Shown here in pieces: positions 2,034-17,769 of a stretch of 20,851 nt of DNA. This DNA is from a virus. The notes under the pieces are model-generated. The model saw only the letters and a list, made by a program, of their open reading frames with translations, was not told the DNA's origin and did no database searches. The position numbers and the translations under genes were made by a program. The stretch is taken from IMG/VR virus record IMGVR_UViG_3300037264_002744, positions 1 to 20,851 of that record, one strand, 5' to 3'. Every line of letters starts with the position of its first letter. Position 1 is the first letter of the stretch.

Positions 2034-3209
2034 CTAGAATCCTCCAACCACGGAACCATCGTTCCCGAGCACCGCGAAGCGCGGATCGAGCCATGCCTGC
2101 TCGAACCGCTTCTTCGTGCGCATCCGGATCTCGTCGTATTCGAACGAGCGGCCGGAGTTCGGGACCTCCTGCACGATCTCGAGGCCCGTGCGCTCCTGGA
2201 AGACGAAGCCCTCGCCCTTCTTGCCGACCGACCAGACCCAGTCGGACAGGTAGCGGTTCAGCGCGATCTCGAGCGATCCCTTGAACACGTTCTCGGACAT
2301 CTGGCCGCCGTACTCGCCCGACGTCGCGACGTTCTGGGTCTGGGTCGAACGTCCGACCACGCCTGCGTAGTACGCGGACCGCATGATGCCGGCCGCGTTG
2401 AATTCGTCGGTCGCCGAGACGAGCAGGTAGTTCGGCACCCAGCCAAGCCGCACGTTCTGCAAATCCTTGATCCGGCGGGCCCGGTAGAAGGCTTCCTTCA
2501 GCCGCGGCACCGACAGCGGCCCGAACGTCTCGAGCCGGTTGTTCAGCGTGTTGGCGTCGTTCGCGCTGAACGTGAAGATGCCGCCCGGGTTGACGCCCGC
2601 CCAGGTGGTCGAGCCTTCCTGCGTCGTCCACGGGTCCGCCGGGACGGTCAGGTTGCCGTAGGAGCCGGCCGCTCCGAGGTAGCGGATCGCGAAATAGATC
2701 TCTTCGAGCCGCGCCATCGCGATCCCCATCTTGCCCTGCCGGCCCTTGAGCTGGCCGGTCTGCTCGTCTTCCCAGAGCTCGTTCGTGAACGCCTCGATCT
2801 TCCCGAACTTGTAGTTCGGGACGATGACGTTGATGCCCTTGACCTGGCCCTCGTTGAAGGCCTGACCTTCGGGCACCAATTCGGGCGTTTCCGAGCTCTC
2901 GAGCGGGTTGTAGAACTCGGCCTTCTTGTCCGACTTGTTGGCCATCGCCACCGTGCGGACCGAGAAGCTCTTCGTCTCCTCGTCGTAGGACTTGTCGGCG
3001 ACGCGCTGCGTACCGACGCGCAGCAACGCTCCGAACGCGTTCTCCGGGTTGGCCTCGCGCTTGACGGCCTCGATGTAGCAGGTCTCGCGCAGCTGGCCCG
3101 GATCCATCCGCCCGGCCTCGGAGAGGCGCAGGTATTCGGCGTCGAGTTCCTTGATCCACGAGGGCGTCATGATGGCCTGCAGCGCCCGTCCTTCGAGAAG
3201 TCTCCTCAT
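2034..3209 (-). CDS. major capsid protein (HK97-fold type)
   Basis: A 391-residue protein. ATG 3209 has a strong SD (AAAAGGAG, about 8 nt upstream). It lies after the protease-scaffold and decoration genes, which is the usual capsid position, and its length suits an HK97-fold capsid protein. Features that fit are an N-terminal helical stretch, a long acidic/basic loop (ETKSFSVRTVAMANKSDKKA, about residues 78-97) that could be an E-loop, an 'IVPNYKFGKIEAFTNELWED' strand, and a C-terminal part ending RSFEYDEIRMRTKKRFEQAW that matches the terminal strand 'i-x-(V/M)-R-x-r-x-x-(A)' of many capsid proteins. It may be nearest to the Mu gpT-like group; the exact family is not decided here. Confidence 0.8.
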   Translation of the reverse strand: MRRLLEGRALQAIMTPSWIKELDAEYLRLSEAGRMDPGQLRETCYIEAVKREANPENAFGALLRVGTQRVADKSYDEETKSFSVRTVAMANKSDKKAEFYNPLESSETPELVPEGQAFNEGQVKGINVIVPNYKFGKIEAFTNELWEDEQTGQLKGRQGKMGIAMARLEEIYFAIRYLGAAGSYGNLTVPADPWTTQEGSTTWAGVNPGGIFTFSANDANTLNNRLETFGPLSVPRLKEAFYRARRIKDLQNVRLGWVPNYLLVSATDEFNAAGIMRSAYYAGVVGRSTQTQNVATSGEYGGQMSENVFKGSLEIALNRYLSDWVWSVGKKGEGFVFQERTGLEIVQEVPNSGRSFEYDEIRMRTKKRFEQAWLDPRFAVLGNDGSVVGGF

Positions 3210-3801: not shown

Positions 3802-4524
3802 CTAGACCTCGACCCCGGCCTGTTTCAGGCTCGCGGCGAGCGATTCCTTCGACTTCGTGGGCGTGGAGATCGAGCGCGGACCCGCGCCGACGACGGCGAA
3901 ATCGCCGGCCATCGACTCGCGGATCTTCGCGTACCGCCGCTCTTCGGCCTCGATCTTGGCCTTCTGCTTCGACTCCGACATCCCGACCAGTTCGTCGATC
4001 GAGATGTAGCCCTCGGGCAACGTGGACCCCGTGAGCAACCGGCGCCCGCTCAGGACCGACTCGAGCACCTGGACCTTGCGGTTCGACTCGCGCAGCTCTT
4101 CCCGCACCGACGCGAAGTCGGTCGCCTTGGACTCGAGCGCCTTGGCCTGATCCTCGAGCGCCGCGGCCAGCTCTTCGTTCCCGGCCTTGCGGAGCACCTT
4201 CGCGGATTCCTTCAGCTCGCCGGCCTTCTTGGTGAGCGACGCCTTTTTCCGCGCCTCTTCCTCCGGCTCCTCGTCGTCCTTCTTGTCGGCCGGAACGCCA
4301 GCGGCCTTCAGGTCGTCTTCCGCCTTTTTCTTCGCTTCCGCTTCGGCCTTTTCCTTGTCGGAGGCCGCCACGTTCGCCGCTTCCGCCGCTTCGTCGGAGG
4401 CCTTCATGTAGCCCTCCATCTCGGCGTGGATCGTCTTCCGCGCTTCCGCGTCGTCGGTCTTGGCCAGTTTGGCCGCCAGCTTGCGGAGCTGCTCGTTGGA
4501 CTCGCGAACGATCTTGATCTTCAT
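3802..4524 (-). CDS. nested in-frame scaffold protein from an internal start
   Basis: Met231 of the protease-scaffold gene (ATG 4524) is preceded by a full AAAGGAGG SD (4540-4533) with an 8-nt spacer, much better than the signal at the long start. Translation from here gives a 240-residue protein starting MKIKIVRESNEQLRKLAAKL that holds only the coiled-coil scaffold part. Lambda C/Nu3 and other phages use this arrangement to make excess scaffold over protease. The SD and frame are seen in the sequence; use of the start is inferred. Confidence 0.72.
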   Translation of the reverse strand: MKIKIVRESNEQLRKLAAKLAKTDDAEARKTIHAEMEGYMKASDEAAEAANVAASDKEKAEAEAKKKAEDDLKAAGVPADKKDDEEPEEEARKKASLTKKAGELKESAKVLRKAGNEELAAALEDQAKALESKATDFASVREELRESNRKVQVLESVLSGRRLLTGSTLPEGYISIDELVGMSESKQKAKIEAEERRYAKIRESMAGDFAVVGAGPRSISTPTKSKESLAASLKQAGVEV

Positions 4525-5214
4525 GGCGCTTGCCTCCTTTGTTCGTCCCGAACCCACCGCGTCGCGCAGCGATTCGAGCGATCTGGTCCAGCCGCCTCGG
4601 GCGGCCGGGAACGTCACCACGTCCGCCGAAATGGCAGCCGTCAGTCTCGTCACCGCGTTCCACTGCTCGCCGTTGATCTCGGCCGGCGCATCTTCGCCGT
4701 CGGCGTTGATCGACAGTCCGCTGTGCGGCTGCATATCCGGGTACAGCGCCGCGTGATCTGCGGCCTCACGGATCAATCCGCGCACGTGCCGCATCAGGTC
4801 GGAGTCCGCCGGGTTGAGCACCAGGTCGGCCATCAGCGCGGCGCGACCGTCTCGGCCAGATTCGACTGCGCACTTTTCAAAGTGTCCGATCAGCTGGCGG
4901 ACCGAACGCTCCGGCAGTTCGATCTCTTCGCGTCGGCTCGGGTGATCGGCAAACGCCTTCGCGCCCTCGAACACCGCGACGCCCGACTCGATCGCCTCGC
5001 GCGTGTACCAGTGGCGGTCGGCCAGATTGCCCGGCCCCTCGCTGATGATGCAGACGCGGGCGCGACGGATCGGCTGGTCGGCCGCTGCGTCGACGGAGCG
5101 GATTCCGCTGCCCGACCAGTCGCGTGCGATGCCAGCCTGATTTTCGCGCTTGCGCTCGATCGCGCGTGCGGCACCGAGCAGCTTCACGGATCCGGGGGCG
5201 GTTGCTGTTGCCAT
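3802..5214 (-). CDS. prohead protease fused to scaffold
   Basis: A 470-residue protein. The N-terminal part (about 45-205) fits a herpes-assemblin-fold phage prohead serine protease: ADHPSR with His91, an acidic turn, then MQPHSGLSINADG with candidate nucleophile Ser165 or Ser168, and finally LTAAISADVVTFPAARGG (the usual 'S-x-D-V-V-T-x-P-A' end of the domain). Residues 231-430 are very rich in Glu, Lys and Ala and should form long coiled coils, as scaffolds do. The C-terminus ends in a capsid-like tail. The protease matures the procapsid and the scaffold directs shell assembly. The ATG at 5214 has no clear SD, unlike the internal start at 4524 (see the nested entry). The exact peptidase family is inferred. 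Confidence 0.78.
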   Translation of the reverse strand: MATATAPGSVKLLGAARAIERKRENQAGIARDWSGSGIRSVDAAADQPIRRARVCIISEGPGNLADRHWYTREAIESGVAVFEGAKAFADHPSRREEIELPERSVRQLIGHFEKCAVESGRDGRAALMADLVLNPADSDLMRHVRGLIREAADHAALYPDMQPHSGLSINADGEDAPAEINGEQWNAVTRLTAAISADVVTFPAARGGWTRSLESLRDAVGSGRTKEASAMKIKIVRESNEQLRKLAAKLAKTDDAEARKTIHAEMEGYMKASDEAAEAANVAASDKEKAEAEAKKKAEDDLKAAGVPADKKDDEEPEEEARKKASLTKKAGELKESAKVLRKAGNEELAAALEDQAKALESKATDFASVREELRESNRKVQVLESVLSGRRLLTGSTLPEGYISIDELVGMSESKQKAKIEAEERRYAKIRESMAGDFAVVGAGPRSISTPTKSKESLAASLKQAGVEV

Positions 5215-5996: not shown

Positions 5997-6085
5997 TACG
6001 GCTTCGGCTGCTTCGGCGGCGCCGTCTTCTCGGGCGGCCTCCGCTTCGGCTTCGGCGACTGCACTTCCTGAATTCGCGCCATCAT
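5996..6085 (-). CDS. 29-residue Pro/Lys-rich micro-ORF
   Basis: ATG 6085 overlaps the TGA (6084-6082) of the head morphogenesis gene, and its TAA (5998-5996) overlaps the next ATG. The product begins MMARIQEVQSPKPKRRPPEK and is basic, Pro-rich and probably disordered. An AAAGGGGG run lies directly upstream and is better spaced for the second ATG (6082). Chained ATGATG and TAATG junctions on both sides support real translation. It might only serve to couple its neighbours, or be a small nucleic-acid- or capsid-binding peptide. Confidence 0.5.
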   Translation of the reverse strand: MMARIQEVQSPKPKRRPPEKTAPPKQPKP

Positions 6086-7098
6086 TGCCCCCTTTCGGCG
6101 ACCCACTTCTCGAATGGCTCGAAGGCTACCAGAACGGTCCGGCCGGTCGACGGGTCACGGATCACCCGATCCTCGGCTCCGATTTCCTCGAGATCGTCCG
6201 GCGCCTCGCCCAGCCCCAGCAGGTCCTTCCACGGCTTCAACGCCGGCGCCGTGACGCACCGGCAGTTCGGATGGAATGGCGGACGGTCCGCGAAGTCCGC
6301 GCTCTCGATGATGGCCCGCGCCTGTGCGCTGTCGATTTCCAATCCGTCCAGCGCCGCGCAATCGTCGTCCGTCCGGCTGTCGATTGTCGCCACCACGATC
6401 TCGCCCGTCACGACGTCGCTGTTGTCGGCGTACACGCGATGGCGGGCCCGGTCCGCCGCCTTCAGGACCTCCGTCCGGACGATCCGCTCGATGACGTAGC
6501 GGGGTCCGGTGTTGGTGGATCCGACGCCGGCGTTGCGGATGTCGCGCACGATCTCGTCCGTTCCCTTGCCGAGCAGCACACCGCTGCCGACGATGTTCTG
6601 CATTTCGCGGGCGAGGTCGTCGGTCAGCGCGAGCGTGCGGTGGCTGAACATCGCGCCCTCCCACGGCGTGTTGACGATCGCGTCCACGGAGTCGTCGGTC
6701 AGCGCCCGCGTGTCGACCCGGATGCTGGGCGGCGTGGCCATGTCGATCGCGTAGGCCGAATACCGAGCCTGCGTCTTGGCCTGCGCCCGCAGCGAGGCCG
6801 ACAGCTTGGCCGTCATCTCGACGCGCAGCCGATCGAGCCTCGAGCGAACCTGATCCGCGAACTGCTCCTCCCGCAGGATCTTCCATTTCAGGTAGTCGAC
6901 CCGCTTCTCGTCGCCCTCGCCGACCGCCTCTTCGAGTGACTCGTGCATCAGGTAGAGCTGCGAGGCCAGTTCGTTTTCGGCCTCGTCGTACAGCTTCAGG
7001 ATCGCCCGAAGGTCGGCCTCTTCCTGCGCGAACAGGGCGCGACGCGACGCGTTTTCGATCCGCTGCAGGACCTGCTGCTGCGTCTGGCGACCCGCCAT
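6082..7098 (-). CDS. head morphogenesis protein, SPP1 gp7/Mu gpF-like
   Basis: A 338-residue protein. ATG 7098 overlaps the portal stop (TAATG); the open frame further upstream is an Arg-rich shadow of the portal gene. Residues 1-115 are helical and charged (likely coiled coil). Residues about 195-283 hold the family pattern: RIVRTEVLKAADRARHRVYA, then ATIDSRTDDDCAALDG, then PPFHPNCRCVTAPA with His276, Cys279 and Cys281. Proteins of this family are minor head components that bind the portal and act in procapsid assembly or DNA ejection. The gene's place immediately after the portal is typical. Confidence 0.85.
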   Translation of the reverse strand: MAGRQTQQQVLQRIENASRRALFAQEEADLRAILKLYDEAENELASQLYLMHESLEEAVGEGDEKRVDYLKWKILREEQFADQVRSRLDRLRVEMTAKLSASLRAQAKTQARYSAYAIDMATPPSIRVDTRALTDDSVDAIVNTPWEGAMFSHRTLALTDDLAREMQNIVGSGVLLGKGTDEIVRDIRNAGVGSTNTGPRYVIERIVRTEVLKAADRARHRVYADNSDVVTGEIVVATIDSRTDDDCAALDGLEIDSAQARAIIESADFADRPPFHPNCRCVTAPALKPWKDLLGLGEAPDDLEEIGAEDRVIRDPSTGRTVLVAFEPFEKWVAERGQ

Positions 7099-9803
7099 TA
7101 TTTCAGGCTCGAGCTGTCGTCCTTCGCGTTCGAGCGATCGCCGGGACTCATGCGGCCGGTCGAGTCTGGCAGGTCTTCGGCCGACGCCATCGCGGCCGCC
7201 CGCTGGTTGATCTGCTGCACGACCTGATCGACGCCGGCCTCGATCTCGGTTTTGATGTCCGCGAGCTCCTTGTCGTAGTCGTAGCGGTTGATGTTGGCCT
7301 CCGCGACGCTGGCGATCGACGACCGCTTGTGCGTGATCCGTCCGCTGCGCCACAGATAGTCGAGCCTCCGCAGCCGCGCGTCCACGTCCTCAGGCGCCGG
7401 CTCCGGGAACGTGAACTCGCCATCCGACGACTCGGTCTTCGAAAGCACCCCGCCCGCGACGGCCGTCTCGTAGACCGCCATCTTGACGGCGTGGCACGTC
7501 TCCTCGGTGTGCCGCTGCAGCGACTCGATCCGTTTGGCGAACGGCGAAGCCCGCATGATCGCCGACGCCTTTGTGCCGCCCTCGGTGACGCCGAGGTATT
7601 CGAGCGGGATCCCCATCGAGGCCGCCGCGAACCGCAGCAGCATCGTCGTGACCTCGCGGGTCGCCGACAACCCAGTACCGATCTGGCTCGACATGGGCGT
7701 GATCTGGACCGCCTTGTTATGGAGCCAGCTGCTGCCCGGCTTCGGCACCTTGGCGAAATTCGGGTTCTGTCGAACGGCCTCGATGTCGGAGGCGTCGCCG
7801 TCGATCTCGACGTCGAACACGTAGGCGAACGCATACTGGCCCGACAGCACGACCGCCGCCGTGAAATCGCGCAGCCGCTTGAACCAGCCCAGCCCCGGGA
7901 AGAGGTCGGACCGACCCCGCTTCTCGCCGCTCGAGATGTTGCGGAGCGAGTGGATGATGTCGTCGGCCGGCACGAAGTCGACCGTGTAGGTCTGGAACGG
8001 CACCCCGTCCATCGTGACGATGTTGTAGGCACCGTTGAAGTTCTGCCAGTAGCCCGCGACCCGCTCGATGTCGTCGGGGTAGGCGATCTTCTCCCACATC
8101 GTCGACGGGTCGATCGGCCGCAGCGTCAGCTGGCCGCGACCGTTCGCGTACTTGCGCAGCATGGCCTCGCCCTGCCACGACTCGTCGCGGACGTGCTGGC
8201 GCAGCCGCTTCTGCCAGTGGTCGCGCCGCTCGAACTCGTCCCAGACCGTCTGGAACGCCACGCTCTCGGCCTGGAACTTCACCCCGCGGCCGATGATGTA
8301 GTCGGTCTGCAGGTCGACGAGCTGGCGGGCGACCGGGTTGTGCGTGACCTCCCACCAACACTTGGCGTGCATATTCAGGTAGTCGGCCAGATAGAGCTGC
8401 TTCGAGTTGTGGACGAAGACACCAGCCGAGAGCGCGAAGTTGTGGTTCGGTTCGACAGTGAAATCGTAGACATCGTCCACGCCATCGGGCACGACCGACA
8501 CGACGCGGTGATTCAGGATGGTCGGTTTTCCGAATCGCGTCGCTCGTCCTCGATCGAGCGCCCGTTTCGCGCCCTCGGCGTATTCGGGATGCTCGGCATG
8601 GTAGCGGGCGACAGAGGCCGAAACCTTGGCCCGCATTTCGTCGGTCCAGACTCGGATCCGGTTCGCGTTTGCGGTCGCCGCAGGGGCCGTTGCTCGAATC
8701 GAGGCCTTATGCGCTTCGCTCATCCAACCGTGCAGCCCCGTGTTCCACGAGATCCACGTGGTTCCGTTGTTCGCCGTTCGGGTCGCCCCCTGTTTCTTCT
8801 TGTCGTCCTCGGACCGGACGCGCCCGATCGCCTTGGCCCTCATCTTTTCGACAGCACCGCGCCTCTTGGCGGGATCGTTCCACCACGACCCAGCCAGCTT
8901 CATGTGCAGCGATTGGTGTTCGCTTTTTGACATGACGACGAGGTTCGTCGGTTCGTTGTTCCGAGGGTTCACGTCGACGTGGTGCCGGACCTGGCCGCGC
9001 TTGATCGGACCGACGAACGAGGCGTGCGTGTACCGCCATCGATTCTCGCCGGGCTGATAGAGCATCTCGTATCCGGCCAACCCCTTGCCAGAGACCTTCG
9101 TGTAGAGCGGCATCAGCGAATCGTCTGGACGAAGATCGGACGCCTTCCGGTACGACCCGTCACGCAGCATGAATCGGTGTCCGGGCGTGCAGCGCACGGA
9201 CTCGCCGTTGTCCAACGTGACCTTGACGACTGGCGTCTGCACGCCCGTCCGCGCCGCGCTGTGCGCCAGCCCCGGCTCGATTCGGCCTGCCGCATTGATC
9301 GAGTAGACCCAGAAACTTTTACCGGCGTATTCGTCCGCGAGCTCTCGGATCGTGCGTTCGGTTCCGTTCAAGAGTCGAACCTTCGTCTCGCCCGCGAAGC
9401 AAAACGGACCTCCGAGGATCTGCAGGAACTCGGCCTCGGGGTTGTTGGGCGAGCCGGGCCCGGCGGCGTCGTTGCCGTCGTCGAACGATTCGAGCAGCTT
9501 GCGCTTCCCCTTCATGGCCTTCGACGACTCGGACAGTTGCCTCTTCGCGTCCGCGAGCTTCGCGCCGGCCTCGATCGTGACCGACTTCATCCTCGCGTGC
9601 GGATAGCAGCTTGTCCGAACGCCGCGCACGATCATGCCGCCCGAAACCGCCATCGACTCGAGCAGCGAGAGCGCGTTGCCTATTTTCGGGTCGGCCTCGT
9701 AGGCGCTCAGGTCCGGCGTGTAGTCGGGCGGCTGGACGAGGAACGAGGCGGGCTTCTGCTTCTCCTCGCCCTCGCCGTCGATCGAGACCTTTTCCTCTGC
9801 CAT
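7098..9803 (-). CDS. portal protein, interrupted by an intein
   Basis: The 901-residue precursor starts at ATG 9803, overlapping the terminase TGA (ATGA). Removal of a 332-residue intein (residues 135-466) leaves a 569-residue portal, a usual size. Portal features are the segment VDLQTDYIIGRGVKFQ soon after the intein, SLRNISSGEKRGRSDLFPGL, a helix-rich region with FAAASMGIPLEYLGVTEGGT, and a charged C-terminus with coiled coil. The portal forms the dodecameric ring at one capsid vertex through which terminase packs DNA. Neighbours on both sides (large terminase, SPP1 gp7-like) confirm the module. The N-extein ends ILGGPF and the C-extein starts SKQLYL. Confidence 0.85.
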   Translation of the reverse strand: MAEEKVSIDGEGEEKQKPASFLVQPPDYTPDLSAYEADPKIGNALSLLESMAVSGGMIVRGVRTSCYPHARMKSVTIEAGAKLADAKRQLSESSKAMKGKRKLLESFDDGNDAAGPGSPNNPEAEFLQILGGPFCFAGETKVRLLNGTERTIRELADEYAGKSFWVYSINAAGRIEPGLAHSAARTGVQTPVVKVTLDNGESVRCTPGHRFMLRDGSYRKASDLRPDDSLMPLYTKVSGKGLAGYEMLYQPGENRWRYTHASFVGPIKRGQVRHHVDVNPRNNEPTNLVVMSKSEHQSLHMKLAGSWWNDPAKRRGAVEKMRAKAIGRVRSEDDKKKQGATRTANNGTTWISWNTGLHGWMSEAHKASIRATAPAATANANRIRVWTDEMRAKVSASVARYHAEHPEYAEGAKRALDRGRATRFGKPTILNHRVVSVVPDGVDDVYDFTVEPNHNFALSAGVFVHNSKQLYLADYLNMHAKCWWEVTHNPVARQLVDLQTDYIIGRGVKFQAESVAFQTVWDEFERRDHWQKRLRQHVRDESWQGEAMLRKYANGRGQLTLRPIDPSTMWEKIAYPDDIERVAGYWQNFNGAYNIVTMDGVPFQTYTVDFVPADDIIHSLRNISSGEKRGRSDLFPGLGWFKRLRDFTAAVVLSGQYAFAYVFDVEIDGDASDIEAVRQNPNFAKVPKPGSSWLHNKAVQITPMSSQIGTGLSATREVTTMLLRFAAASMGIPLEYLGVTEGGTKASAIMRASPFAKRIESLQRHTEETCHAVKMAVYETAVAGGVLSKTESSDGEFTFPEPAPEDVDARLRRLDYLWRSGRITHKRSSIASVAEANINRYDYDKELADIKTEIEAGVDQVVQQINQRAAAMASAEDLPDSTGRMSPGDRSNAKDDSSSLK
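8406..9401 (-). mobile_element. intein with HNH homing endonuclease in the portal gene
   Basis: Splicing motifs are complete: Cys1 (CFAGETKVRLLNGTERTI, start of block A), a block B with Thr and His (VRCTPGHRFMLRDG), and a C-terminus FALSAGVFVHN with penultimate His, terminal Asn, then Ser at +1 of the C-extein. The central part (about intein residues 140-167) carries VRHHVDVNPRNNEPTNLVV followed by two spaced His, an HNH nuclease pattern. Further on, WNTGLHGWMSEAHKASIRA and VWTDEMRAKVSASVARY look like NUMOD3-type DNA-binding repeats. All residues needed for splicing and probably for homing are present, so it is likely active. Confidence 0.9.
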
Positions 9804-11353
9804 CAGGCGTCTCCCAGAATCACGGACGCAAAATCGGTCGGCGTGTCGGCGCCGGCCAGCATCGCGTAGCCGGTCGCGTGCGCCCAGTGGTCATCTGCGG
9901 TCCTCACGTAGCCCATCGTAACATCCCCCGTCTTCTCGTCCACCGTTTCCGTTCGGACGATCGACTCGAGCTGCTTCGCGTAGGCCTCGACCAGCGCCGA
10001 CCGCTTCGGCGGGACCGTCTTCCGGTTGCGGAGCCGTTCGATCACCGTGTCGAGCGTGGTGGTCCGGTGGCAGTCCACGCGCAGGAATCGGCGCTTCTCG
10101 TCCTCGACCCACGAGGGCGGCTCGCCTTTCGACTTCGAGTAGTAGCAGAGCCAGACGCGCGGGCGCCGGCGCTGCGCGAACGCGATCGCGGCCCTCGTCT
10201 CTGGCAGGGCGTCGCAGACAGCCTTCCGGCAGTTCATCGATAGCATGATAGCGTCCATCTCCTCGAACGTCTCGCAGGTCCCGATGCCGAGGATGCGGGG
10301 CGTTCGCAGACCGATCGCAACCCAGTGCAGGACGCGGCCCACGTCGATCCCGATGCAGGTCGGCTCGGCGGTCGCGGCCACCAGCTCGTGCTCGCCGCAC
10401 CGATCGAGGATCTCGCTGGCCGTGATGCGGCCCGAGCCCTCGACATAGGCGATGCCCAGCCGGCCGTTCTTGAACCGGGCGAGTCGGTCGGTGCTGCGGA
10501 AGTCGGTCATCAGCTCGTCGAGGTTCACGGTCGGCATCAGCAGCTGCGACAGGTGGTAGCCCCGGATCTTCGACGACTGGTTGCGGGGGATCCACCGGCC
10601 CTCGCGGCTGTCGATCGGCTTCCGGCACTTCGCGACCGGACAGGCGAGGTAGGCGCCAGCCGTGGCCTCGACCACGCAATCCGGGAACGTCGTCTCGAGG
10701 TCGAACTCCTTGCCGCAGCCCTTGCAGCGGAACGTCCAATACATCTGGTCGGAGTCCGAGAACTCCCGGTCGATCCCGAAGCCCGGGACCGAGGGCTTCG
10801 AGAAGCGCCGCTTCCACTGGACCCGGCTGGCGTGGATGCGCTCGTTGATCTCCTGCAGGTCGTGCGGCGTCATCTCGTTCGCCTCGTCCGCGATCACGAT
10901 ATCGCCCGTGATCGACAGCTTGCGCGTCTTCCCGGCCACGCCGCGGAAGTAGACGTAGGCGTTCCCGATCCGCTTCAGGTGGACGTGGTTGGTGCCGGCC
11001 AGCATCTCGCCGAAATAGTTCAACTCGATCAGCCGCTGCACCTTCGTCTTCGACAGCTCCTCGACGTCCGTGTCGGTCGGGAAGTAGTAGATCGCACCGG
11101 CCGGCAGCTGGCCCCGCGCCAGCAGGTAGAAGACCGAGCACAGCGCCAGCACCGTCAGCCCGACCTGGCTCGCCTTCTCGACCACGATGTTCGGGTGCGA
11201 GACGAAGTCCCACGCGATCTGCAACAGATAGGGCCGGTCGTCGAAACTGTAGCGGACGCCTTCGGGCGTCTCGATGAAGTGGGTCAGCCAGTAGGGGAAC
11301 GGGTGCTCATGCGGCGCGACGCGAGCGACGGCGCGGCACAGCTCGGCCTCCAT
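9803..11353 (-). CDS. terL: terminase large subunit, GpA-like
   Basis: A 516-residue protein, the DNA-packaging motor ATPase and headful or cos nuclease. A variant Walker A is at residues 59-67 (EKASQVGLT) and Walker B at 151-157 (DIVIADE), followed by an ANEM coupling segment. A zinc ribbon (Cys210, Cys213, Cys238, Cys243) is typical of the lambda GpA family. The nuclease domain shows Asp337 (CIGIDVG), Asp381 (VCDALPET) and Asp487/Asp488-His489. ATG 11353 is chosen because the frame above it is Arg/Ser-rich shadow sequence; this gives a 47-nt overlap with the preceding gene. Its SD is weak, so coupling is likely. Confidence 0.9.
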   Translation of the reverse strand: MEAELCRAVARVAPHEHPFPYWLTHFIETPEGVRYSFDDRPYLLQIAWDFVSHPNIVVEKASQVGLTVLALCSVFYLLARGQLPAGAIYYFPTDTDVEELSKTKVQRLIELNYFGEMLAGTNHVHLKRIGNAYVYFRGVAGKTRKLSITGDIVIADEANEMTPHDLQEINERIHASRVQWKRRFSKPSVPGFGIDREFSDSDQMYWTFRCKGCGKEFDLETTFPDCVVEATAGAYLACPVAKCRKPIDSREGRWIPRNQSSKIRGYHLSQLLMPTVNLDELMTDFRSTDRLARFKNGRLGIAYVEGSGRITASEILDRCGEHELVAATAEPTCIGIDVGRVLHWVAIGLRTPRILGIGTCETFEEMDAIMLSMNCRKAVCDALPETRAAIAFAQRRRPRVWLCYYSKSKGEPPSWVEDEKRRFLRVDCHRTTTLDTVIERLRNRKTVPPKRSALVEAYAKQLESIVRTETVDEKTGDVTMGYVRTADDHWAHATGYAMLAGADTPTDFASVILGDA

Positions 11354-11786
11354 CCGTGGCGTAATGGCGGCGGACGGCGTCCACAAGCTCGGGCGTGAGA
11401 GCGAAGGCGAGCGTCGGGCCGCCCGCGTCTTTGACGACCGGCTCCGGGTCAAGGTCGAGCCCGACGATTCGAGCCGCCACCTTCTCGCGCACGGACTCCG
11501 TTTTCGATTGCAGCATCGAGACGTACACGCGGGCCGCGACGCCCTTGTAGGCCGCAATGATGTCGCGGGCCGGGAGGTTGCGATCCTGAAACAACCGCCG
11601 AAACGCTGGCCGCGATCGCCGCTTCGCCACCGTCTCCTGATCGAGACTCAATCGCTGGCCGATCTCGATGTTGGTCAGCGCCGGCTCGGACTCGAGCGTC
11701 TTGATCAGGACGATGTCGATCTCGTCCGTGACGTCGCCGCGCGGGATCCTTTTCGCTCGGACTCGACCGGACTTTGGATTCGGCAT
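11307..11786 (-). CDS. putative terminase small subunit
   Basis: A 159-residue basic protein directly before, and overlapping, the large terminase gene. Residues about 36-56 (ALTNIEIGQRLSLDQETVAK) are a good helix-turn-helix, followed by long helices (residues 60-107) that could make the oligomer core, and a C-terminal tail with PRRRSRRAA. Small terminases bind the packaging start site through an N-terminal HTH and assemble as rings, so the domain order fits. The call rests on position and HTH; no specific family is recognised. Confidence 0.7.
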   Translation of the reverse strand: MPNPKSGRVRAKRIPRGDVTDEIDIVLIKTLESEPALTNIEIGQRLSLDQETVAKRRSRPAFRRLFQDRNLPARDIIAAYKGVAARVYVSMLQSKTESVREKVAARIVGLDLDPEPVVKDAGGPTLAFALTPELVDAVRRHYATDGGRAVPRRRSRRAA

Positions 11787-13692: not shown

Positions 13693-14328
13693 TCATGCGT
13701 TCCTTCCCATCGCCCTCATTCTGGCGCGGTACTCGGTCCGACACGGCCGACAATAGCCTGTCGATCCGATCTTCGGTCGAACCTTGCATCTCGGACACGT
13801 CGGCTTCCGCCTCGGATCAATTCCTCCGCGAAGAATGTTGGCCAGCACGGTTTTCGCCCGCCACGAGGACAGACCGCGAATCTCCGGATACGTCTCTCTC
13901 GCCTTTTTCCAGAACTCTCGGCCGGTCTTCGAGTTTCCGTTTCGATGCCCCCGAGCAAGACGCGCCAGATTCTTTCTGGCGGGATTCTCGTCGCCGCCTA
14001 GCGATCGTCCCTTCGCCACCATATCTGCGTGATTGTCTGCGGACGTTCCGAGAAACAGATGGTCCGGATTCACGCACGGAGGATTGTCGCAACGATGAAG
14101 CACACAGAGGCCCCCGGTGACATCGCCCCTGAACACAATCCAAGCCCAGCGACTGGCGTTGTGTCTCACGCCTCCGACGAAAACTTGACCGTATCCTTGC
14201 CTACTCCTACTGAACTTCCATTCCCAGCAGCCTCTTCCCGACACGGTTGTCCGTCGTTTGATTTCCTCGCCCGCTTGCTCTCGCGTGAGCTTCGACCAAT
14301 GCGGACGGTGCTGGCGAGGCGTTTCCAT
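13693..14328 (-). CDS. free-standing HNH homing endonuclease with C-terminal zinc ribbon
   Basis: A 211-residue protein. GCWEW (33-37) begins the domain, then LCVLHRCDNPPCVNPDHLFLG (His78, Asn82, Cys85, Asn87, His90) is a classic HNH of the type found in phage homing genes. The C-terminus has a zinc ribbon with Cys178, Cys181, Cys193 and Cys196. ATG 14328 has a poor SD and lies inside the preceding HNH gene, with a 122-nt out-of-frame overlap; a later start closer to the HNH domain is possible. The region looks less GC-rich than its neighbours, which suggests recent arrival. Confidence 0.82.
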   Translation of the reverse strand: METPRQHRPHWSKLTREQAGEEIKRRTTVSGRGCWEWKFSRSRQGYGQVFVGGVRHNASRWAWIVFRGDVTGGLCVLHRCDNPPCVNPDHLFLGTSADNHADMVAKGRSLGGDENPARKNLARLARGHRNGNSKTGREFWKKARETYPEIRGLSSWRAKTVLANILRGGIDPRRKPTCPRCKVRPKIGSTGYCRPCRTEYRARMRAMGRNA

Positions 14329-14788
14329 CGAGGTCTCGAATATAGCTATCCGTGTAGAGGATAGCTAGCTTGTTCCAGAGGAGCCGACGAACGCTCTTCG
14401 ATTCTGTTCCGTGGCAGCGCGAGAAGTGGCACCCCGACAGTCCCGGTCCTTGGCAGACTGTCGCAAGATTCCACGGATCGTCTGGCCCCAATTGGCTCCG
14501 GAACTGGACATGGTGGGCTGTCAACCCGAAGGCGTTCTTCGCCCCGCATACGAGGCACGTTCCGTTGTCCCGTTCGATGATGCTGGCCCGCAACGCCGGC
14601 CACGCCGCGATCCGGGCCCGCGCCGCAGGCGACCGCCGGATCCGCCGGGTCGTCCGCCCCAGCCCCTTGCCGCGCCCGATCGGCTTCCGAGGCTTCAGCA
14701 CCGGCAGCGGCTTCGGATGCTGGCCCCTCGCCCTCGCCTCGGCCATCAGGCGCTCCGCGACCTCGCGTGACACCTTCGCGGGCCTCAT
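14207..14788 (-). CDS. HNH nuclease (second)
   Basis: A 193-residue protein. ATG 14788 overlaps the TGA of the preceding gene (ATGA). The N-terminal 60 residues are basic with Pro and Gly (RKPIGRGKGLGRTTRRIRRS). Residues 72-126 form an HNH with zinc: RDNGTCLVCGAKN (Cys78, Cys81), LTAHHVQF (His92, His93), PWNLATVC (Asn107, Cys112) and GCHFSRCHG (Cys120, Cys125, His126). It may be a phage HNH nuclease or a homing enzyme. The last 40 residues overlap the next HNH gene in another frame, so the original 3' end may have been replaced. Confidence 0.78.
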   Translation of the reverse strand: MRPAKVSREVAERLMAEARARGQHPKPLPVLKPRKPIGRGKGLGRTTRRIRRSPAARARIAAWPALRASIIERDNGTCLVCGAKNAFGLTAHHVQFRSQLGPDDPWNLATVCQGPGLSGCHFSRCHGTESKSVRRLLWNKLAILYTDSYIRDLDGNASPAPSALVEAHARASGRGNQTTDNRVGKRLLGMEVQ

Positions 14789-14991
14789 ACCTGCGCCGCC
14801 TCTCGCATCCGCTCGTCCTCGATCCACTTCTGGATCAGGTGCGCGACGAAGTTGACGGGCCGATCCTTCGGCTCGTGGTTCTCGGCCTCGCACCACCAGT
14901 CGTCGTCGAGGTAGCCGCGCCGCGACAGTTCGCGCAGGATCTGTTCGGCGACCTCGACGCTCGCGGGGGCCGGGAAGATGTAGTCGCTCAC
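14785..14991 (-). CDS. small acidic hypothetical protein
   Basis: A 68-residue protein. GTG 14991 overlaps the preceding TGA (GTGA) and has GGGAGGG about 7 nt upstream; the longer open frame above it is a shadow. The sequence starts VSDYIFPAPASVEVAEQILR, is helical and acidic, and ends KWIEDERMREAAQV. No motif is recognised. ATGA and GTGA overlaps on both sides make translation likely. Confidence 0.62.
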   Translation of the reverse strand: MSDYIFPAPASVEVAEQILRELSRRGYLDDDWWCEAENHEPKDRPVNFVAHLIQKWIEDERMREAAQV

Positions 14992-16129: not shown

Positions 16130-16776
16130 GGCGACACCGCCTGCTTTTGCGCGAGTGCGCGTCTGGCATCGGCGTCCTTCACGGTCCAGAACGCGAACAG
16201 TTGCGCGTCCGATCGCGGGAGTTCGCCCCGTGCGTGGTAGAGCTTCCAGACGGCCAGCGCAATCTGTCGGCGAGGCGGTGGGCCGGACGGCGGGACGGTC
16301 TGGCCGTTAGAAGTTCCGTTCGAGGGATGCAAAGCAGTAGGTGTTGATCTTTCTTCTTTCTCACTTCTCAGGTCTAGGTCTAAGTCTACAGTCTCACTTC
16401 TCGCATTCATCTTGGATTCATCTTGATTAGCTCTCGATTCCGGCTTGACTAACGCCTTCCGGCCCGCGCCCGTCCGCTTCCCGCCCCACAACGCATCGGT
16501 CTGGTAGAGGCTCCAATTCGGCACCATGACGCCGCTGCGGATTCGTTTGAGCAGCGCCTTGCGAACCAGCACGCGGATTCCGTCCGGTCGCGCATCTCGC
16601 CCACGCAGACACGCCGCCGCGATGATGGCCCAGTCGGGCAGATGGATCTCTCCCTCGGCCTCTCCCTCGTCGGCCAGTTTGAGGCACGTCAGCCACAACC
16701 ATCGCTGCGCGGCCGTCAGATCGAGCAGCGCCCGATCCTGCCACGCCTCGCGCCACAGCTTAAACCATGGCTTCAC
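16126..16776 (-). CDS. replisome organiser-like winged-helix protein
   Basis: A 216-residue protein starting at GTG 16776, overlapping the HNH stop (GTGA). The N-terminus (MKPWFKLWREAWQDRALLDL; LTAAQRWLWLTCLKLADEGE; IRVLVRKALLKRIRSGVMVP) matches the general layout of phage replisome-organiser N-domains: 'W-F-k-L', a helical segment where target size is read, and a winged helix. Residues 105-175 are a low-complexity, Ser/Thr/Pro-rich linker, and a C-terminal helical domain follows (QIALAVWKLYHARGELPRSD). Such proteins start phage DNA replication by recruiting helicase. It gives no clear DnaD or helicase-loader signature, so the role is inferred. Confidence 0.6.
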   Translation of the reverse strand: MKPWFKLWREAWQDRALLDLTAAQRWLWLTCLKLADEGEAEGEIHLPDWAIIAAACLRGRDARPDGIRVLVRKALLKRIRSGVMVPNWSLYQTDALWGGKRTGAGRKALVKPESRANQDESKMNARSETVDLDLDLRSEKEERSTPTALHPSNGTSNGQTVPPSGPPPRRQIALAVWKLYHARGELPRSDAQLFAFWTVKDADARRALAQKQAVSP

Positions 16777-17381
16777 GGCCAGGATTTCCTGTCGCGGATG
16801 TTGGCGACAGCAGAGATAGACAGTCCGTGTTTACGACCGAGACTCGACAGCGATACGCCCGAAAGCAAACTATGCCGGATCGACAGAACTTGACGAAGCG
16901 TCACCTTGTGCGCGGGGTGATGTTCTCCGGTGATGTTGCGCCAAGGTCGACCACCTCGAGCCCTGCCTTTCAGTACCTTGTCCGTGTTGTTCTCTCGAAC
17001 GGTTCCGAGACGAAGATGGTCTGGCCTCACACACATCCGATTGTCGCAGTAGTGGATCACGCAGAGGCCGTGGGGAATCGAACCGTTGGTCAGAACCCAC
17101 GATACGCGATGCGCGAGTGCCGTGACTCCCGGCATTCCCATCACGGATCTTCCGCGAGGACCGAGACCAACAACACCGTATCCGCGAGTCGGTGATGTCG
17201 ATCGCTGCCATTCCCAACACGTCGGACCCGCTCGAACGTGAGACCAAAATCTCCGCGCGAACGCACAAGTGGCCCCCGGACCGGCATCGGTTGTCGAGAC
17301 TCGATGGGATCCTTCGTCAGCGACTTTCGGCGCCGACTCGTTTCCGATAGCACCGGGGGCCACTTCTGAATTCGGTTCCAT
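16773..17381 (-). CDS. free-standing HNH homing endonuclease with C-terminal HTH
   Basis: A 202-residue protein. ATG 17381 is 19 nt after the stop of the gene upstream and has no clear SD. After a variable N-terminus, TCWEWQRS (54-61) and LAHRVSWVL lead to GLCVIHYCDNRMCVRPDHLR with His110, Asn114, Cys117 and His122, the HNH pattern of phage homing genes. Residues about 160-200 (VLSIRHSLLSGVSLSSLGRK; HGLSISAVANI) form a helix-turn-helix like the DNA-binding modules at homing nuclease C-termini. It breaks the otherwise regular overlap chain, which suggests insertion. Confidence 0.82.
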   Translation of the reverse strand: MEPNSEVAPGAIGNESAPKVADEGSHRVSTTDAGPGATCAFARRFWSHVRAGPTCWEWQRSTSPTRGYGVVGLGPRGRSVMGMPGVTALAHRVSWVLTNGSIPHGLCVIHYCDNRMCVRPDHLRLGTVRENNTDKVLKGRARGGRPWRNITGEHHPAHKVTLRQVLSIRHSLLSGVSLSSLGRKHGLSISAVANIRDRKSWP

Positions 17382-17400
17382 GAGTCTCGACACGCGATCC

Positions 17401-17769
17401 CTACGCCGACAGCCCGTGCAAGTCCATCGGCAAATCGACCTGCGCGGCCGGCCGGGTCTGGCTCCGCATCGCCTGCGCGGTCGAGCGGAGCGCCGCAATC
17501 CGCACGTGCAGCGCCCGCGCCTTCGCCTCCAGTTCCGCCGCCGCTTTCTCGATCACGGCCGGATCGTCCGCCCACGAGTAGCCGCGCACGAACGACGACA
17601 CGATCGGATCGCCCGTCCGGATCATCTCGACGACGCCGGCCCGGAAGGCGTTGTCGGGGATCCCGAGTTGCTCGACGATCTTGTCTCGCTTCACCCACGC
17701 GCCACGGTAGGAGCGCAGCAGCAGCCGGATCCGCTGCTTCGTCTCGAACGGGAGTTCGAGGGGTTTCAC
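17401..17769 (-). CDS. winged-helix DNA-binding protein
   Basis: A 122-residue protein. GTG 17769 overlaps the preceding TGA (GTGA); GTG 17775 is an alternative start. Residues about 10-60 (KQRIRLLLRSYRGAWVKRDK; IVEQLGIPDNAFRAGVVEMI; TGDPIVSSFVRGYSW) fit a winged helix with a typical 'lG-s-d-x-x-v-R-x-x-i-x-x-l-r-x-G-x-p-I' core and wing. A helical coiled-coil segment follows (VIEKAAAELEAKARALHVRI). Small phage proteins of this plan act as regulators or replication accessory factors. Confidence 0.68.
   Translation of the reverse strand: MKPLELPFETKQRIRLLLRSYRGAWVKRDKIVEQLGIPDNAFRAGVVEMIRTGDPIVSSFVRGYSWADDPAVIEKAAAELEAKARALHVRIAALRSTAQAMRSQTRPAAQVDLPMDLHGLSA

Follow-up and report, generated by a model that had tools for sequence, protein, structure and literature searches.

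Inteins have mostly been recorded in nucleic-acid enzymes. In a 20,851-nt stretch of viral DNA (hereafter the window; positions 1 to 20,851 of IMG/VR record IMGVR_UViG_3300037264_002744), a minus-strand open reading frame that resembles a phage portal gene is interrupted in frame by an insert of 332 codons, which raises the questions of what the insert is, whether it splices and homes, and how it relates to other inteins. Our answer, to which we assign a probability of about 0.9, is that the insert is a homing intein of class 1 that bears an endonuclease of the HNH family and that resides in, and splices out of, the portal protein of a lambda/Mu-type tailed phage. The parts of the reading frame are as follows.

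7098..9803, minus strand: portal gene with in-frame intein; 901-aa precursor, 569 aa after splicing; PHROG portal family
9402..9803, minus strand: N-extein, 134 aa, with the C-terminal end FLQILGGPF (read from the codons)
8406..9401, minus strand: intein, 332 aa, with the class 1 signature Cys1 ... His-Asn / Ser+1 (Pfam and TIGR matches; AlphaFold2 model)
9093..9401, minus strand: N-terminal half of the splicing domain, residues 1-103 (TIGR01445; pLDDT 94-98)
9177..9188, minus strand: block B, Thr72...His75 (CTPGH)
8913..9020, minus strand: HNH_3 endonuclease domain (PF13392), residues 128-163, with His140/His141, Asn153 and His162
8529..8903, minus strand: mostly helical stretch 3' of the HNH domain, residues 167-291 (from the model; not NUMOD3 by Pfam)
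8406..8519, minus strand: C-terminal half of the splicing domain, residues 295-332, ending VFVHN (TIGR01443; pLDDT about 94-98 at 301-332)
7101..8405, minus strand: C-extein, 435 aa, portal domain, with the N terminus SKQLYL (PHROG portal; lambda portal fold)

The insert extends from Cys135 to Asn466 of the 901-aa reading frame, exactly 332 residues, and the minus-strand codons that define its ends are those of Cys1 (9399-9401), His331 (8409-8411), Asn332 (8406-8408) and Ser+1 (8403-8405). Block A contains the Cys1 nucleophile within CFAGETKV, the C-terminal junction VFVHN / S supplies the penultimate His, the terminal Asn and Ser+1, and C1, T72, H75 and N332 all fall in columns that do not vary across an alignment of 49 inteins (that of the window and 48 relatives). 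Matches to Pfam Intein_splicing (4.1e-20), to the NCBIfam models TIGR01445 (N-terminal, 8e-11) and TIGR01443 (C-terminal, 4.7e-5), and to the NCBIfam RtcB-type intein model (1.8e-38) are far beyond chance. The initial annotation, which had read a complete-looking intein at 8406-9401 with Cys1, the block B Thr and His, the penultimate His, Asn and Ser+1, was thus correct as to both borders and residues. An AlphaFold2 model made with the 48 relatives as alignment had a pLDDT of 83.4 (mostly 94-98 at residues 1-160 and 301-332, low at 206-252), and near the top of its structural matches were the Mtu RecA intein (Z 21.9, 138 residues, 1.5 A) and the Ssp DnaB intein (Z 21.2, 135 residues, 1.4 A). 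These superpositions run from residue 1 to residue 332, as expected where a nuclease has been inserted into a splicing domain; as modelled, the insert is a class 1 intein with the Hint (Hedgehog/intein) fold.

Identification of the host protein draws on the genes around it as well as on the exteins themselves.

9803..11557, minus strand: large terminase (GpA type), upstream of the portal gene; phrog_675, 5e-85; Pfam GpA_ATPase, 1.7e-13
6082..7353, minus strand: Mu F-like head morphogenesis gene, downstream of the portal gene; Pfam PF04233, 6e-11; phrog_241, 1e-38
3802-5214: protease-like gene; weak match, 1.5e-5
2034-3209: capsid-like gene; weak match, 8.7e-7

The order terminase, portal, MuF, protease, capsid is the usual arrangement (the protease and capsid matches being weak), and no intein family matched the large terminase. 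The C-extein matched the PHROG portal family at 2e-14 and Pfam Phage_portal_2 at 1.5e-6 with 28.0 bits, which is below the cut-off of 32.9. We built a portal profile from four cultured phages, namely Xanthomonas M29, Acidithiobacillus AcaML1 and Bordetella PBb001, whose genes are annotated as portals, and Pseudomonas LPPA33, from which the matching gene was taken; hhalign aligned the host portal with these at a probability of 93.7% (E 1.9e-7). A scan seeded with the four portals returned hundreds of lambda-type portals, from which we retained 58 clean intein-free proteins of 452-535 aa that are only about 20% identical to the portal of the window. With these 58 as alignment, the C-extein model reached a pLDDT of 77.8, and its best fold matches were chains of the lambda portal (8xow_B: 369 residues at 6.2 A, Z 26.5), the T4, SPP1 and T7 portals ranking below; a sequence search of the PDB with the C-extein matched no portal, although the fold match is clear. 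Pattern scans of IMG/VR returned no close relative of the portal, terminase or capsid gene, a scan of species genomes returned none of the portal, and tblastn of the C-extein against the cultured-phage collection gave nothing at 1e-3. With the spliced portal as query and E<=10, the listed tblastn matches had E values of 0.6-9 and were mostly annotated portals. By sequence family, fold and gene order, the host protein is a lambda/Mu-type portal, as the initial annotation had proposed.

The intein sits between GGPF and SKQLYL, and Ser+1 is residue 1 of the modelled C-extein, the first helix of which comprises residues 2-22. Residue 1 pairs with residue 43 of the lambda portal; the exact register at the junction is unsure, since residues 1-4 have a pLDDT <50. 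The first motif that can be aligned (HNPVARQLV with RNNPYAARGV) lies about 20 residues downstream of the junction. In the model, the splice site is the edge, or start, of the first portal helix, the empty site having been placed through the fold and a weak alignment because of the low identity of the intein-free portals. Conservation of the junction sequence was not demonstrable in the aligned intein-free portals, so that the earlier suggestion that the insertion marks a conserved portal element holds structurally at most, at the helix start. With no close portal relative found, there is no known allele with these flanks and an empty site in which homing might be traced.

The HNH_3 domain was detected at 6.1e-7 on the intein and at 1.9e-6 in a Pfam search of the window, and a set of nine inteins shows no variation at H140, H141, N153, H162 and H166 within the HNH region. 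The HNH domain named by the initial annotation is thereby borne out, and the NUMOD3-like repeats that it also named are not supported: PF07460 gave no match in the window intein at E<=10 (note that HMMER filters may drop weak short motifs), and the best self-comparison score for an internal repeat in residues 167-292, 40, was attained by 11 of 200 shuffles and so lies within the shuffled range. PF07460 did match, at 5.6e-4, in the reading frame of one relative (L044). By analogy with other homing nucleases, the helical stretch of residues 167-291 may be a DNA-binding arm.

One alternative is that the intein is splicing-competent but that its endonuclease is no longer active, homing having ended and the element being kept since imprecise loss would destroy the portal. 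Mini-inteins of 145-205 aa within the family (L026, L050, L054, L074 and L075) indicate that nuclease loss is common, and the region after the HNH domain is of low confidence in the model and unlike named DNA-binding repeats. However, the HNH_3 score of 29.4 bits is over the curated cut-off of 24.8, the key His and Asn residues are those found at the invariant positions of the family, and the frame is uninterrupted; we regard this alternative as unlikely, though by no means negligible. A second alternative, that the insert only cleaves, or stays in the portal, where as a Hint domain it would serve structure or regulation, takes its support from bacterial intein-like and Hedgehog proteins, non-splicing Hint folds that were among the fold matches. 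We consider it highly improbable, given that every class 1 splicing residue is present, His-Asn and Ser+1 included, that the best matches are true inteins, and that the insert is absent from all 58 intein-free portals, none of which retains the 332 residues as a regular domain.

The intein and its host differ in composition: GC3 is 0.78 in the intein (260/332) versus 0.92 in the extein (526/569; Fisher p 3e-9), and the difference persists when amino acid content is controlled (z -6.0), as for an intein that arrived later than its host gene. Three freestanding HNH endonuclease genes on the minus strand of the window (13693-14328, 14207-14896 and 16773-17498) have a GC3 of 0.60-0.70, lower than that of the intein and in line with mobile DNA, so that the phage holds several mobile-type nuclease genes. 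An assembly artefact that fused unrelated sequences, for which one might cite the unequal GC3 and the fact that the record is one 20.9-kb virus fragment, has next to no likelihood in view of the single uninterrupted frame, the residue-exact intein borders and the like insertions in many independent contigs.

Returning to the reading of the insert as a homing intein, we envisage that after translation of the precursor the Cys1/Ser+1/Asn332 pathway would cut out the 332 residues and join GGPF to SKQLYL, yielding a 569-aa portal subunit for the head. During co-infection the HNH domain would presumably cleave intein-free portal alleles, into which the intein would then be copied by recombination. 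We infer splicing from the intact residues, the fold and the need for an intact portal, and homing from the HNH domain and the composition; judged by these sequence features, the portal intein is probably functional as a homing intein.

Where do the relatives of this intein reside? By tblastn at E<=1e-3 the intein matched 40 cultured-phage records, all at <60% identity and mostly ribonucleotide reductase inteins. An intein profile scan identified 49 loci in IMG/VR and 17 in species genomes. The viral hosts, which were identified through Pfam in a subset and from sequence context in the remainder, were mainly T4-like portals (about 23 distinct reading frames), a share that is biased upwards because the scan was partly seeded with the T4-portal inteins L002 and L004, and then terminases, with DNA polymerase A, dUTPase and radical SAM genes as single cases. 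In the first scan, seeded with the window intein alone, 3/3 matches were T4-like portals. The cellular hosts, judging from flanking residues, look like GyrA, GyrB and one DnaB. The GyrA-like loci (L060-L068, L070, L071, L074 and L075) carry the family at one site and come from many candidate-phylum bacteria and small archaea; two of their inteins are mini-inteins without a nuclease. By score the closest inteins were those of the terminase loci L011, L012 and L014 and of the portal locus L013. In a splicing-domain tree (142 columns) the window intein had no supported sister, and a single origin of all portal inteins was neither shown nor rejected (p-AU 0.175).

The T4-like portal loci show several further features. 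The reading frame at L004:2-8068 (+) (also L037; IMGVR_UViG_3300010379_000183) encodes 2688 aa with an open 5' end and contains five inteins by Pfam. Within it, at L004:3197-5731 (+), one intein follows directly on another, no extein residue intervening (SWILLHN / CFQGSTR), and Gln is the apparent last residue of the second (KVQSFQ / SVEEDFF). Further T4-like portal frames, among them those of L018, L020, L021, L029, L036, L038 and L043, hold three or four inteins apiece; the frame at approximately L010:2027-6187 (LR756508, an unannotated record of a 484-kb uncultured phage) has three by profile, of which one has an HNH-like middle part and the other two are short. The site NP[LM] / S.DED(F/Y)F is occupied in about 10 T4-like portal loci, and several distinct sites cluster near the first conserved portal helix. 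One clade (support 91/89) unites L018 inteins 1, 3 and 4, L021 inteins 1-3 and L020 intein 1; that inteins from different sites of one portal gene group together in this way suggests that they spread inside the gene and did not each arrive separately. At the NLPV / CKYGD site the inteins (L004:1520-2737, L002:5256-6566 and L003:810-1328) have no N-terminal Cys or Ser and possess a block F Cys (DVYC); two also have a block B Trp. In these respects they resemble class 3 inteins, but the Thr that class 3 inteins carry close to the C terminus, part of the WCT motif (PMC7664689), is absent. Outside the portals, Bacillus phage SP-15 carries an intein (L009:3674-5293) in a gene annotated as hypothetical (SP15_022), with a C-extein that starts CVTGGIGLGKST, a P-loop resembling that of a terminase or helicase.

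Titles and abstracts returned by searches of the open-access literature contained no report of inteins in T4-like portals, of tandem inteins or of five inteins in one gene, an absence that is no proof; a single ribonucleotide reductase gene is known to hold four, the largest number given in the relevant passage of PMC1635734. Taken together, these distributions raise the possibility, which we put a little short of even odds, that one HNH-intein family, also found in terminase and gyrase genes, has a hotspot in the portal genes of tailed phages in general, lambda-type and T4-like, with portals entered repeatedly and T4-like sites dense around the first portal helix, near the site used in the window. 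If portal genes are a frequent intein target, inteins may often split or inflate the portal annotations of metagenomic phages, and in principle the assembly of heads could depend on protein splicing.

How, then, does the window intein compare with known systems? With the Mtu RecA and Ssp DnaB inteins (PDB 3ifj and 1mi8) it has the splicing-domain fold in common; these come from bacterial hosts, and their solved chains of 139-141 residues are splicing domains without a nuclease. The terminase inteins at the KVDHP-GG / SKD site (L011, L012, L014, L017, L019, L025 and L026) are closest by score, with 34% identity to L011 over the whole length and 51% to L014 over residues 1-166, but their host, by sequence context, is the large terminase. 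T4-like portal inteins in IMG/VR (for example L002/L029, L004/L037, L013, L015, L018 and L021) are of the same family, are roughly 30-55% identical in matched parts, mostly have an HNH domain and likewise reside in portals; however, those portals belong to the T4 gp20 family (PF07230), their insertion sites are unlike that of the window, and several of the genes hold three to five inteins. Kelley et al. (2016) described six portal inteins in cluster C1 mycobacteriophages (PORT, Table 1; PMC5050341), which also occupy a phage portal gene, in a different phage group; no Mycobacterium phage was among the 40 records matched at E<=1e-3, so the window intein is not recognisably the PORT intein of cluster C1. 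These six cases and the many T4-like relatives mean that the initial annotation, in calling a portal host uncommon, was half right and overstated the rarity. Portal inteins being already known, the window intein is a new example of a known mobile element, and adds a case in a portal of the lambda type, a head protein that has a structural and no enzymatic role.
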